DNA of 64,000 bases from assembly GCA_028718185.1 (NCBI GenBank), contig JAQUMH010000002.1, forward strand, positions 237,332 through 301,331, written 5' to 3'. Shown piece by piece: positions 32,403 to 62,950 of the stretch (position 1 is its first letter; every line of letters starts with the position of its first letter). This stretch comes from Elusimicrobiota bacterium. Its GTDB lineage: Bacteria; Elusimicrobiota; UBA8919. Below the pieces are notes generated by a model, which made no database searches, was not told the DNA's origin, and saw only the letters and a list, made by a program, of their open reading frames with translations. Both the position numbers and the translations under genes were made by a program.

Positions 32403-32411
32403 TATAACACC

Positions 32412-32483
32412 TTAACGACGTTCACGTGTTCAAATGTTCATTTGTTCATATGTTAAACCATCAACGAATGAACCTGTGAACGC
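32412..32483. repeat. tandem-word inverted repeat, family T
   Basis: GTTCACGT, GTTCAAAT, GTTCATTT and GTTCATAT are in tandem (period 8), then a turn, then GAATGAAC and CTGTGAACGC. The two arms pair. It lies between rplQ and mreB. Confidence 0.78.
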
Positions 32484-32493
32484 CTCTATGCTT

Positions 32494-32844
32494 CTACTCA
32501 ACTAATTTAACTATTGCCATCTCACTGCCGTCGGAAATGCGACGACCTAACTTATAAATTCGGGTATACCCACCAGGTCTGTCCTTAAATCTTTCTGCTA
32601 AAGGACCGAATAACTTTGTCATTGCTATTGAAGATTTTATATCTTCTGCAACAAGTCTCTTATTTGACAACCCGCCTTTTTTTGCCTTTGTAATAATTTT
32701 TGAAACGAATTTTACTAATTCTTTCGCTTTTGGAAGTGTAACTTTTATAGATTCGTTTTCTATTATTGCAATGGACAAACTTCTAAGTGTTGCAAAACGA
32801 TGTGATGTTGTTCTTCCTATTTTTCTGTTTTTTCTATTTTTCAT
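32494..32844 (-). CDS. rplQ: 50S ribosomal protein L17
   Basis: The 116-residue L17 has the family start 'NRKIGRTTSHRFATLRSL' and ends 'GRRISDGSEMAIVKLVE'. Homologues usually begin MRHxxxGRKLGR, so this N-terminus (MKNRKNRKIGR) is slightly shorter. It is an early-assembling 50S protein near the exit tunnel. It is the last gene of the alpha cluster, separated from rpoA by a family B element. Confidence 0.95.
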   Translation of the reverse strand: MKNRKNRKIGRTTSHRFATLRSLSIAIIENESIKVTLPKAKELVKFVSKIITKAKKGGLSNKRLVAEDIKSSIAMTKLFGPLAERFKDRPGGYTRIYKLGRRISDGSEMAIVKLVE

Positions 32845-32853
32845 TACACATAT

Positions 32854-32942
32854 TAGAAGCGGATTTACACAGATTACAACGCAGATAAACGCTGATGATT
32901 TCCGCGTGTATCAGCGTGTTGTTCTGCGTTTATCTGCTTCTA
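32854..32942. repeat. tandem-word inverted repeat, family B
   Basis: The ends AGAAGC...GCTTCTA form an inverted pair. Inner words are ACGCAGATAAACGCTGAT on the left and TATCAGCGTG, TTCTGCGTTTATCTGC on the right. The right end overlaps the rpoA stop codon (the TAG is part of the repeat border). Confidence 0.8.
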
Positions 32943-33890
32943 CTCCTTTAACGATACTCCCAGTTCTTTTAATTTCATTTCTATATCTTCTAAGGATTTT
33001 TTACCAAAATTTTTATAACCCAGGAGCTCTTCGCGCGTTTTTTTCGTCAAATCACCGATTGTTTTTATTTTGGCGCGTTTAAGACAAGTCGCTGCCCTTA
33101 TTGAAAGTTCAACAATCTCAACTGATTGGTCTAAAATACTGGAAACTTGTTTCTCTTCTGTTTTATCTTTTTCTTTCTTATCGCTTTCCTCTTCCTCTTC
33201 TTCAAAATTTATGAAAATTTTGACAGAATCACTTAAGAGTTTTGCAGAATAAGCCAACGCATCTTCAGGATTTATAGAACCATCTGTCCATATTTCTATA
33301 ATAAGCCGGTCATAATCCGTTACCTGACCAACACGGGTATTTTCAACTTCATAGAATATCTTTTTAATAGGTGTAAATGCCGCATCAATCAAAATTGTAC
33401 CGGCAGGTTGTTCTGCTTTTTTATTTTTTTCACTCGGCGAATAACCTTTTCCTTTTGCTACATCAATTTCCATCTCAAGTGAACCGCCGGATTCCAGGGT
33501 AGCAATTATTTGATCTTTATTTATAACCTCAACATTAGCGTTGGCTAAAATTTCCGATGCCTTAACTTCTCCTCCCTTTGAAACAGACAATTTAAGTGTT
33601 TCAACATTATTAGAATACATTTTGAATCTAACTTTTTTCAAATTCAAAATTATTTCCATTACATCTTCAACAACACCAGGTAATGTTGCAAATTCATGGG
33701 TAGCATCTTTTATGCGTACCGCAATTACCGCAGCACCTTCTAGTGATGAAAGTAGGATACGACGAAGGGAATGACCAACAGTATGTCCATAACCTCGCTC
33801 AAACGGTTCAACAACAAACTTACCATAAGTCAAATCAGAAGAGATATTTTTTTCACTCTTCTGAGGTTCTACTATATCAGGAAGCCGCAT
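32940..33890 (-). CDS. rpoA: DNA-directed RNA polymerase subunit alpha
   Basis: The 316-residue protein has the N-terminal dimerisation domain ('FVVEPFERGYGHTVGHSLRRILLSSLEG', about 26-53, and 'GKGYSPSEKNK' near 147) and the C-terminal DNA/activator-binding domain ('LSIRAATCLKRAKIKTIGDL' to 'KNFGKKSLEDIEMKLKELG', about 255-312). A strongly charged linker (EEEEEESDKKEKDKTEEKQ, about 228-247) is more acidic than usual. The stop TAG belongs to the border of the family B repeat downstream. Confidence 0.97.
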   Translation of the reverse strand: MRLPDIVEPQKSEKNISSDLTYGKFVVEPFERGYGHTVGHSLRRILLSSLEGAAVIAVRIKDATHEFATLPGVVEDVMEIILNLKKVRFKMYSNNVETLKLSVSKGGEVKASEILANANVEVINKDQIIATLESGGSLEMEIDVAKGKGYSPSEKNKKAEQPAGTILIDAAFTPIKKIFYEVENTRVGQVTDYDRLIIEIWTDGSINPEDALAYSAKLLSDSVKIFINFEEEEEESDKKEKDKTEEKQVSSILDQSVEIVELSIRAATCLKRAKIKTIGDLTKKTREELLGYKNFGKKSLEDIEMKLKELGVSLKE

Positions 33891-33901
33891 TTATATAACC
33901 T

Positions 33902-33972
33902 CCACTAAAAAGTTTATAGAGTTTTAGAGTTCATAGAGTTTTTAGAGTTATAACCTTATAACTATGCAACCC
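33902..33972. repeat. tandem-word repeat, family G
   Basis: AGAGTTTT, AGAGTTCAT, AGAGTTTTT and AGAGTTATA are in tandem, followed by a degenerate opposite arm (CTTATAACTATGCAACCCTA). The same words occur in the 23S-5S spacer at 62883-62950. Confidence 0.72.
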
Positions 33973-33991
33973 TATTCCCCAATAACTACTT

Positions 33992-34633
33992 TTACTTACT
34001 ATACAATTCTACTATCAATTGCTCTTTTGGTCTTTCTTCATCATACGGAACAGCCATTTCCTCCCTCACTGGCTGCCTTACCACAGTTGCTATGAAATCT
34101 GTAAAATCAACAGATAACCATGGTGAAATACCTTTTTTAGAAGCAGTCTCTATTGATTTTTTAACAAGTAAATTATTTTTTATTTTATCGGTCGGCTGTA
34201 TTTTATCATTGACCTTAACTGCATATGAAGGTATGTTTATGATTTTGCCATTAACTTTAATATGTCTATGTAAAACTAACTGGCGGGCAGCAGCAAGCGA
34301 TACGGATAATCCAATTCTCCGAACAACATTATCAAGACGAGTTTCTAATGTTAATAAAAGATTGAAACCAGTCATACCTTTATGTTTTGCTGCATTACTA
34401 AAATACCTTCTAAATTGCCGTTCCATAACACCATATTGTCTTTTTACCTGTTGTTTGGCACGCAATTGATTAGAATATTCCGATGGTTTTTTTATTAATC
34501 TTTTATGTGGTCCAGGAGGACCTTTCTTCTTGGTTACAGGACATTTTATTGTTTCACATCTTTCACCCTTTAAGAATAAAGGCATACCTTCTTTTCTACA
34601 TTTTCTACATTTAGGTCCAATATCTCTTGCCAT
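33992..34633 (-). CDS. rpsD: 30S ribosomal protein S4
   Basis: S4 (213 residues) nucleates 30S assembly and binds 16S rRNA. This is the zinc-binding form, with C9, C12, C26 and C31 ('CRKCRKEGMPLFLKGERCET'). The S4 RNA-binding domain spans about 103-165 ('RLDNVVRRIGLSVSLAAARQ'). No Shine-Dalgarno sequence is seen before the ATG; the upstream region is a family D element. Confidence 0.97.
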   Translation of the reverse strand: MARDIGPKCRKCRKEGMPLFLKGERCETIKCPVTKKKGPPGPHKRLIKKPSEYSNQLRAKQQVKRQYGVMERQFRRYFSNAAKHKGMTGFNLLLTLETRLDNVVRRIGLSVSLAAARQLVLHRHIKVNGKIINIPSYAVKVNDKIQPTDKIKNNLLVKKSIETASKKGISPWLSVDFTDFIATVVRQPVREEMAVPYDEERPKEQLIVELYSK

Positions 34634-62408: not shown

Positions 62409-62426
62409 ATAAACCTATTCCTTTCG

Positions 62427-62494
62427 AAAAAAATATCTTCCCGAGAACAAATCCGCCACTTATTCATTGGCGGACAGGGAAGATAACTTCCTTA
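62427..62494 (-). promoter_or_regulatory. structured leader of rplJ, terminator-like; candidate L10 autoregulatory site
   Basis: On the minus strand ATCTTCCC (62484-62477) pairs with GGGAAGAT (62442-62435), enclosing an inner stem TCCGCCA/TGGCGGA (62474-62468 and 62458-62452). Seven T (62433-62427) follow at once, then AGGAATAGG and the rplJ ATG. It could act as an attenuator or as the L10-L12 binding leader. Confidence 0.5.
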
Positions 62495-62516
62495 TGTCTC
62501 GGCGGGGAAAAAGATA

Positions 62517-62587
62517 ACTGCGTTCATGTGTTGATGTGTTCACTTGTTGATGTATTAACTTATGAACATATGAACACGTGAACGCCT
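62517..62587. repeat. tandem-word inverted repeat, family T
   Basis: GCGTTCATGTGTTGATGTG, TTCACTTGTTGATG face CTTATGAACATATGAACACG and TGAACGC. It lies between 5S rRNA and rplJ. Confidence 0.78.
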
Positions 62588-62647
62588 TTGCTTTTATTTA
62601 ATCCCTCATCCACACTTCGGGACTCGGAACCCCACTGTCTTTGACTA

Positions 62648-62740
62648 CAAAGACAATTAAAAGATTGAAAATTAAAAAATTAGAAAGATTTGATAATCTT
62701 TGAATCTTTCAATCTTTACAATCTTTTTAATCGTCTTTAA
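62648..62740. repeat. tandem-word inverted repeat, family D
   Basis: AAAGACAATTAAAAGATTG faces CAATCTTTTTAATCGTCTTT as an almost perfect outer stem, with AAAATTAGAAAGATTTGAT and TTTGAATCTTTCAATC inside. It begins 5 bp beyond the 5S rRNA 3' end. Confidence 0.8.
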
Positions 62741-62745
62741 AAAAA

Positions 62746-62866
62746 CCCCCGGCAGCGACTTACTCTCCCAGCCGCGAATTAGCAGCAAGTACCATCAGCC
62801 CTGGTAGTCTTAACTTCTGTGTTCGGAATGGGAACAGGTGTTGCCCTACCGGAAACACCACCGGGG
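62746..62866 (-). rRNA. rrf: 5S ribosomal RNA
   Basis: About 120 nt. The 5' end CCCCGGTGGTG pairs with the 3' end CGCTGCCGGGG. The interior has the conserved CACCTGTTCCCATTCCGAAC and 'AGAAGTTAAG' blocks and GGTACTTGCTGC. It lies 103 bp downstream of the 23S gene. Confidence 0.95.
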
Positions 62867-62882
62867 AAAATTTGTGTTATAA

Positions 62883-62950
62883 AGTTTTAGCGTTATAGGG
62901 TCATAGGGTTAAAAACCCTAAAACTCAATAACTCTATAAACTCTAAAACT
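62883..62950. repeat. tandem-word inverted repeat, family G, in the 23S-5S spacer
   Basis: AGTTTTAGCGTTATAGGG and AGGGTT face AACCCTAAAACTC, AATAACTCTATAAACTC and TAAAACT. It shares words with 33902-33972 and would be transcribed within the rRNA precursor. Confidence 0.78.

Follow-up and report, generated by a model that had tools for sequence, protein, structure and literature searches.

Inverted word arrays in the ribosomal operon of an Elusimicrobiota bacterium and its relatives, some placed as putative split ribosome-binding sites

What are the repeated and inverted words that fill the spacers of an Elusimicrobiota ribosomal operon, and how do they stand in relation to the start codons that follow them? 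We addressed this question in a 64,000-nt stretch of assembly GCA_028718185.1 (contig JAQUMH010000002.1, positions 237,332 to 301,331 of the forward strand; hereafter the window), which sits on contig C2 of a draft genome of 3.03 Mb in 27 contigs. Its ribosomal genes all lie on the minus strand, in the order 23S to mreB and mreC. The nearest named relatives are Elusimicrobia metagenome-assembled genomes (UBA9627, SecY 86%); seven genomes belong to the same family as the window's genome (SecY 86-90%), and a further one, G008, to the same order and a different family. A first-pass annotation of the window had described these spacers as long imperfect hairpins built of tandem words. We find word arrays beyond shuffled controls, full-length copies within the genome, replacement of words under a kept design, a characteristic tail of 8-9 nt before the start codon, and restoration of a Shine-Dalgarno (SD) spacing that is exact to the hairpin foot. 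The arrays are dispersed and predicted to form hairpins. In the ribosomal operons of six genomes, 28/96 of these hairpins, roughly three in ten, have a geometry that would likely work as a split ribosome-binding site, a reading that we hold to be about evenly balanced between true and false.

Before the spacers were tested, we redrew the gene boundaries between mreB and 23S and set the starts by hand. The test set comprised 30 stretches of at least 45 nt (5S>rplJ split in three), each compared with dinucleotide-preserving shuffles. The inverted-repeat score was significant (p ≤ 0.05) in 24/30 stretches, the tandem-word score in 21/30 and the RNA folding energy in 25/30; at least two of the three measures were significant in 25/30. 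A separate folding run placed 20 of 27 operon spacers at z<-2 and 13 at z<-3. The long hairpins proposed earlier thus withstand the shuffled control, and the claim that nearly every spacer has an element largely holds, except that the rpsL promoter gap is not the sole exception: rplV>rpsC, which holds a weak element, and rpsG>fusA are significant on nothing. By reading, there are 26 elements and two fragments, near the 28 elements first counted.

Word families were likewise assigned by reading, with no clustering run, and the grouping of families in adjoining spacers was judged by eye. About eight can be told apart, where at least nine had been proposed: AAGATT/AATCTT, GTTCA/TGAAC, GCAGAT/ATCAGCG, CGCGAAT, CACGAAT, GTAAGTGG/CTACTCCC, AGTAG/CTACT and AACTCTA/TAGAGTT. 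As had been noted, the same family recurs in non-adjacent spacers. Words follow one another with periods of 7-10 (among own-genome spacers with a strong tandem signal, most often 8, in 24, and next 7, in 13), and the second arm is inverted. An Rfam search of the window at gathering score returned four matches (23S, 5S, tmRNA and one tRNA), none to a spacer element. On both strands of 32400-52399 there are 17 terminator-like sites, against 11.5 (standard deviation 3.4) in shuffles; most of those listed lie inside genes, and one coding-strand site lies in secY>adk.

Word hairpins exist genome-wide yet concentrate in the ribosomal operon. Outside-operon figures come from genome samples with our own simple gene calls, the sample for the window's genome being C2 plus C1:1-160000. 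Strong hairpins occupy 15/27 operon spacers of this genome versus 38/167 sampled outside (p 9e-4), and 15/23 versus 10/55 when length is matched at 70-130 nt. The enrichment recurs in two relatives, G003 (19/26 versus 22/89) and G006 (20/28 versus 28/98).

The earlier idea that cassettes had been dealt out is supported by whole copies. The rplW>rplB element has eight whole-genome matches: six close ones (84-89 of 89 nt, identity 80-100%), a diverged one (74% identity, reaching base 81) and a partial one. The ribosomal operon holds four of the seven longer copies. The ends of the close copies are constant, TAGAAGC ... GCTTCTA (GCTTATA in one), and five of the six, on two contigs, share a plan of purine run, element, 6-11 nt and ATG, the purine runs being AAAAAGGAA, AAAAAGGG, AAAAAGAA, AAAAAGGAA and AAAGGAG. 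In the sixth, which precedes rpoB, a normal GAGG lies 3' of the element. A copy on another contig has inner words in common with the rpoA>rplQ copy. For the GTTCA element there are 27 genome matches, mostly partial, and a pattern collection from the relatives holds whole-length families of 13 CRGAACA, 8 GTGAA, 4 GGAGATT, 13 AAGTGG and 7 TTAAAAATG members. The number of words varies among copies and between arms.

The first-pass annotation missed where the hairpins sit. A scan that used no foot motif, superseding a GGC-anchored foot search, covered 122 spacers from six genomes, with halves of different spacers recombined as the null. The tail, from the 3' foot to the start codon, measured 7-9 nt in 45 cases versus 5.6 in recombined halves. 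Extended into the end of the upstream gene, the scan gave 96 operon hairpins, of which 35 have a tail of 6-10 nt, 57 a longer one and four one of less than 6 nt; lengths of 8 nt (18) and 9 nt (13) stand out. The short-tail feet span unrelated word families (CAATTA, CAGTGA, CAGGAT, CAGAGA, TAGAAG and AACGCG). An SD-like trinucleotide lies within 6 nt 5' of the 5' foot in 28/35 short-tail versus 23/57 long-tail hairpins (Fisher p 2e-4), and inside the tail itself in 3/35 versus 35/57.

We then asked, by sequence only, whether an SD-like motif lies 4-11 nt from the start codon with the hairpin present and with it excised. Among the 35 short-tail hairpins such a motif is found in 6% of unfolded sequences and in 86% once the hairpin is removed at its foot; mean anti-SD energy falls from -0.95 to -6.28 kcal/mol with an assumed anti-SD sequence. 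Shifting the left cut from -18 to +18 nt in 2-nt steps restored 17-51%, except at +2 (89%). Of the 57 long-tail hairpins, about 53% have an SD irrespective of the cut. In G008, three of three short-tail hairpins were restored. Judged in this way, the short-tail operon hairpins resemble the split sites of phage T4, a normally spaced SD being absent from the unfolded sequence and restored with the hairpin out, a behavior that fails outside the operon. Five short-tail cases belong to the window's genome and two to G001. The clean ones in the window are rpoA>rplQ, where the rpoA stop codon is the first three bases of the element, rplP>rpmC and rpsZ>rpsH; rplW>rplB follows the same plan with a tail of 11 nt.

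Together, these measurements point to an arrangement in which the hairpin, predicted to fold in the mRNA, would bulge out, so that the far SD-like motif would meet the start codon at a normal distance. The 30S subunit could then span the hairpin foot when it binds, in the manner reported for genes 25 and 38 of phage T4. We infer that ribosomes accommodate such hairpins and that the cassettes are mobile: they may spread by copying, and those that bear a split site may be tolerated or favored even at junctions that overlap in other genomes. Longer-tail hairpins often retain a conventional SD between hairpin and start (35/57), and so would need no split site.

The sequences of the elements turn over rapidly between relatives. 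G003 and G006 belong to one genus, with ribosomal genes 89.0% identical at the nucleotide level and 24 spacers of 40-330 nt in common. In 22 of these, identity is 0.32-0.63 with flanks at 0.64-0.93, a few of them having a different sort of repeat on one side; two (0.80 and 0.82) look orthologous. G003 and G007 (87.7%) have 10 common spacers, alike at rplO>secY (0.97), rplE>rpsZ (0.85), rplX>rplE (0.77), rplR>rpsE (0.66) and part of rpsE>rplO. In another genus, G002 and G005, some spacers exceed their flanks in identity; rpsQ>rplN stands at 0.98 against flanks of 0.77 and 0.83, and rpsK>rpsD at 0.95 against 0.84 and 0.86, reflecting either constraint or recent exchange. From these comparisons, each spacer either retains its element or bears a different one, and hairpin, length class and position persist. 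The first-pass annotation had reasoned that unrelated, unstructured spacers in relatives would undo the hairpin interpretation. Half of that picture is found: in the closest relatives, G003 and G006, spacer sequence differs and structure remains, with z<-2 in 18/24 and 22/27 spacers, respectively. Operon spacers are less structured in G002 (9/19), G005 (5/14) and G008 (5/16).

Several further observations concern the same relatives. In G003, G006 or G007 (loci L036, L041 and L042), the left arm extends into the upstream gene, and repeat words encode the last residues of L15, L5, L29 or Adk (the ends of rplO, rplE, rpmC and adk). The GTTCATAG/GTTCGTGG elements of fusA>tuf and rpsM>rpsK in G006 are, by eye, mutually reverse-complementary, in inverted orientation. 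In G007, CATTCTGAACGAAG-type and longer repeats are nested within the word hairpins of rplF>rplR, rpsH>rplF and rpsE>rplO, with arms and tail intact.

The two arms accept about one mismatch per word, and sliding the partner abolishes pairing (from 97.4 to 50-57%, and from 93.0 to 20-43%). The purine-richer arm, overlooked by the earlier annotation in the relatives, is the 5' one in 69/79 operon hairpins from eight genomes, and in 26/28 and 21/22 hairpins of the genome samples of G006 and G003. Strand background does not explain this orientation, since fourfold sites have a GC skew of -0.02 to 0.10 and a T over A skew of 0.13-0.17. In the sample of the window's genome, 399/418 adjoining gene pairs are co-directional by our own gene calls, an extreme strand bias; transcription and replication are therefore inseparable as causes of arm orientation.

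A number of observations weigh against split sites. Compensatory change is weak: the covariation check proposed earlier found two-sided changes only mildly above letter shuffles, the covariation score or both-sides count being reached by 36 to 84 of 500, and the RNAalifold covariation terms are unfavorable. Across 23 GGC-footed cases, pairing at the foot has a mean probability of 0.83, and the motif and the tail plus start are unpaired with probabilities of only 0.58 and 0.55. G-U and A-C mismatches stand at 170:86 in operons and 127:108 elsewhere; we do not rely on this strand-specific excess, as it is confined to operons and the copies are non-independent. The own-genome sample shows no arm bias (22/38). 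Most short-tail cases, 28/35, come from one genus (G003 10, G006 13, G007 5), and two of the window's own cases, rpsE>rplO and secY>adk, carry an SD-like motif in or at the tail itself. The three samples from outside the operon contained short tails in 8/42, 8/36 and 9/39 hairpins, and excision restored 50, 25 and 33%, not above shifted cuts. Among distant operons, short tails were absent from G002, G011, G036 and L071, with one each in G005, G027 and G028, unrestored. We therefore limit the claim to the ribosomal operons of the window's family and G008. The spacer between 23S and 5S carries an element with no gene start nearby. The anti-SD sequence is an assumption, because the 3' end of 16S is missing from the assembly. 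Finally, a normally spaced SD is missing from 20/41 element-free orthologous junctions, and the downstream genes may therefore need none.

Such junctions also bear on where the motif comes from. At adk>map, five genomes including the window's overlap by 4 nt (ATGA) with no SD, and the G006 element there carries AAAGG at its foot. At rplF>rplR, a normally spaced SD is lacking in the four element-free genomes, and three elements have AAGG at the foot. Because an SD is found at only 21/41 element-free orthologues of split junctions (53/88 over all element-free junctions), insertion at a pre-existing SD is disfavored, and the SD-like motif seems to be mostly element-borne. At adk>map of G003 (L036), where five other genomes overlap at ATGA, TATGATTT stands on either side of a CCGCAGAT-type element and may be an 8-bp target duplication; other junctions were viewed by eye only. 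The exact tail motif CTGRTGTTAAYATG proved too strict as a tag, with 18 matches in 4/11 genomes and none in the window's genome or G003.

In its boldest form, our reading holds that the elements are self-dispersing, portable split sites, each composed of an SD, any word hairpin and an 8-nt tail, that land immediately before start codons and uncouple overlapping ribosomal-protein genes so that each is started independently, with only the geometry conserved and words swappable within a genus. We offer this version as tentative, and on the doubtful side of even. A rather unlikely alternative is that selfish hairpin repeats, akin to repetitive extragenic palindromic (REP) sequences or miniature inverted-repeat transposable elements (MITEs), gather where they are tolerated, the AGG and the 8-nt tail being inherited ends and translation starting through the AU-rich tail or coupling. 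Full-length copies, some with constant ends, would be expected of such repeats, and restoration absent outside the operon and SD-less element-free junctions (half of the total) fit them as well; the feet of unrelated families nevertheless agree in tail length and motif, and restoration is tightly bound to foot position. A selfish origin also draws on Y1 transposase genes, which have matches in 10/12 genomes searched, with seven matches in the window's genome. The Y1 loci inspected, however, bear other inverted repeats, and we found no link between Y1 or REP-associated tyrosine transposases (RAYTs) and movement of the elements. Among the 15 inspected of the 49 Y1 matches listed, 13 were without a word hairpin on both sides, and at two (L253 and L254) a neighboring open reading frame (ORF) had been taken; locus L237 has a GATTACACAGAT hairpin upstream. 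At L231, L242, L236, L255, L232 and L235, Y1 genes of about 222-230 aa are flanked by GGGACGG-type inverted repeats, a separate miniature-element system.

It is improbable that the hairpins act instead in mRNA stability or processing, stopping 3' exonucleases after the stop codon or serving as targets of a double-strand RNase to set the half-life of each gene. Many do begin a few nucleotides past a stop codon, they are enriched in the most expressed operon, and one lies between 23S and 5S, yet this explanation predicts neither the 8-9-nt tail nor the 5'-foot motif, and less structure is found in the spacers of G002, G005 and G008. A purely mutational origin, in which slippage yields tandem words, correction templated by the hairpin copies them onto the opposite arm, and neither movement nor function is involved, could account for varying word numbers between copies and arms and for similar arrays of other words in distant phyla, but is made very improbable by homology of about 89 nt with constant 7-base ends across loci on different contigs and by an operon concentration that persists after length matching.

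The elements of the window are collected in the table. The copy outside the operon (26504-26593) lies between rodA-like and radical-SAM-like genes, named by eye; the radical-SAM-like ORF (24865-26496, minus strand) has a tandem heptamer, AGTCCGA, in its own first codons (about 26400-26440). Between the second 5S>rplJ element and rplJ, 62409-62494 is a folded stretch (folding p 0.02) with a T run at its end, perhaps an L10-type leader or attenuator. Another, longer, REP-like hairpin repeat occurs in rpsG>fusA (52337-52463) and mreC>mreD (30396-30542), and repeats resembling it are found in the C1 sample and in secY>adk and rpsK>rpsD of G003.

Table. Word elements and adjoining features of the window (window coordinates)
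Feature	Position	Strand	Support
rplQ>mreB: GTTCA-family hairpin, then SD AAGG	32403..32493	-	shuffle test
9-nt tail ATATGTGTA, hairpin foot to rplQ start codon	32845..32853	-	sequence reading, foot scan
rpoA>rplQ: GCAGAT-family hairpin, ends TAGAAGC/GCTTCTA	32854..32942	-	all three tests significant
SD-like AAAGGAG abutting 5' foot, within rpoA end	32943..32949	-	foot scan, copy comparison
rpsD>rpoA: AACTCTA-family element	33891..33991	-	words p 0.01, folding p 0.007, inverted repeat p 0.056
rpsK>rpsD: AAGATT-family hairpin	34634..34753	-	shuffle test
rpmJ>rpsM: GAGGAG, GTAAGTGG/CTACTCCC hairpin, 8-nt tail GTGTTATA	35693..35781	-	shuffle test; outside the 35 short-tail feet
infA>rpmJ: short CGCGAAT-family hairpin	35896..35948	-	shuffle test
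map>infA: short AAGATT-family element	36168..36216	-	shuffle test, folding not significant
secY>adk: CGCGAAT-family hairpin; AGG within short tail AGGTTTTAT	37602..37683	-	foot scan, shuffle test
rplO>secY: GTTCA-family hairpin	39010..39102	-	genome matches, shuffle test
rpsE>rplO: AAGATT-family hairpin; SD-like GGTG within short tail GGTGTTAAT	39562..39644	-	foot scan, shuffle test
rplR>rpsE: CGCGAAT-family hairpin	40116..40206	-	shuffle test
rplF>rplR: AAGATT-family hairpin	40558..40630	-	shuffle test
rpsH>rplF: CACGAAT-family hairpin	41204..41340	-	shuffle test
rpsZ>rpsH: AAAAGAGG, AAGATT-family hairpin beginning CAATTA, 8-nt tail ATTTTATT (41737-41744)	41737..41823	-	foot scan, shuffle test
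rplX>rplE: AAGATT-family hairpin	42597..42671	-	shuffle test
rplN>rplX: CGCGAAT-family hairpin	42981..43067	-	shuffle test (folding p 0.11)
rpsQ>rplN: AAGATT words, mostly a single arm in spacer, no hairpin	43437..43489	-	tandem words only
6-nt tail preceding rpmC start codon	43945..43950	-	foot scan, copy comparison
rplP>rpmC: GCAGAT-family hairpin, 93% identity to rplW>rplB copy	43951..44039	-	genome copies, shuffle test
Purine run AAAAAGGG abutting 5' foot of rplP>rpmC element	44040..44047	-	copy comparison
rpsS>rplV: GTTCA-family hairpin	45616..45711	-	genome matches, shuffle test
rplW>rplB: AAAAAGGAA, GCAGAT-family hairpin (46871-46959), 11-nt tail, rplB start	46860..46968	-	copies, shuffle test
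fusA>tuf: AGTAG/CTACT hairpin, then SD GGAGG	50134..50224	-	shuffle test, tandem words not significant
rpsL>rpsG: GTTCT variant of GTTCA family	52938..53021	-	shuffle test; family by reading
rpoC>rpsL: promoter-like gap without word element	53451..53527	-	only folding reaches p 0.046
rplL>rpoB: GCAGAT-family element (61380-61463), then conventional GAGG, rpoB start	61370..61469	-	copies, shuffle test
5S>rplJ, second element: GTTCA family	62495..62599	-	genome matches, shuffle test
5S>rplJ, first element: AAGATT family	62600..62746	-	shuffle test
23S>5S: AACTCTA/TAGAGTT hairpin between two rRNA genes	62866..62971	-	shuffle test
GCAGAT-family copy (26504-26593) outside operon; AAAAAGAA precedes, 7-nt tail	26497..26599	-	genome copies

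If the split-site reading is correct, start-site models would fail in bacterial ribosomal operons that bear copied split-site hairpins, and initiation on highly expressed genes would tolerate a hairpin of 50-100 nt or longer between SD and AUG. Sequence swapped under a kept geometry between congeneric species would amount to a natural experiment, and the role of short tandem repeats before start codons, an old question, would become directly testable.

How do these elements compare with known systems? REP and REPIN palindromes, which are associated with RAYT transposases, are dispersed imperfect palindromes in spacers with GTAG or CGTC at the foot. The word hairpins resemble them in being dispersed imperfect palindromes in spacers of a genome with Y1 transposase genes, and differ in their exchangeable words, in the other inverted repeats found at Y1 genes and in a position tied to start codons; in place of a constant GTAG or CGTC, their 5' feet read CAATTA, CAGTGA, CAGGAT, TAGAAG and others. 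Cyanobacterial short tandemly repeated repeat (STRR) heptamers, small dispersed repeats, BOX, ERIC and Rickettsia palindromic elements are likewise short repeated words or hairpins about 100 nt long, placed inside genes or between them, generally with one conserved sequence per family, whereas here several word families follow one design. The two-armed layout, described at first as unfamiliar, is not confined to the window's relatives. Hairpins of heptamer words with two arms also turn up in the ribosomal operons of other phyla, with 48 of the 530 spacers taken from 80 named loci scoring on both measures and some of the 48 being coding sequence behind misplaced starts; they are led by L104 (Desulfatirhabdium, 7/10), L137 (a Deltaproteobacteria metagenome-assembled genome, 7/14) and L123 (Omnitrophica, 4/12). 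In the examples inspected there, the SD lies 3' of the hairpin. On balance the earlier interpretation is partly supported.

In Beggiatoaceae, cyanobacteria and Bacteroidetes, TAACTGA heptamer repeats usually stand right before start codons, in ribosomal-protein operons among others; they are mostly without SDs and have no predicted folds, and a regulatory role or a mobile origin is discussed (PMC4679880). The word hairpins share with them short tandem words in spacers near start codons (here with tails of 6-10 nt in 35/96). The TAACTGA repeats, as described there, are direct repeats of one heptamer and unfolded, as STRRs are direct tandem repeats of one heptamer; here periods are 7-10, there are several words, and an inverted arm makes the arrays foldable, often with an SD-like motif on the far side. 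Our literature search, covering a small part of the matching papers, returned no description of split-site word hairpins. In the literature consulted, split ribosome-binding sites are documented for two phage genes: RNA structure brings the SD of T4 gene 25 from 27 to 11 nt, and that of gene 38 from 22 to 5 nt, with mutational evidence (PMC3014915). The likeness is that an SD too distant from its start is followed by RNA structure that shortens the spacing (PMC3014915). The T4 structures are short and belong to single phage genes; here long word hairpins of unrelated words stand at many ribosomal-protein junctions and have copies within the genome.

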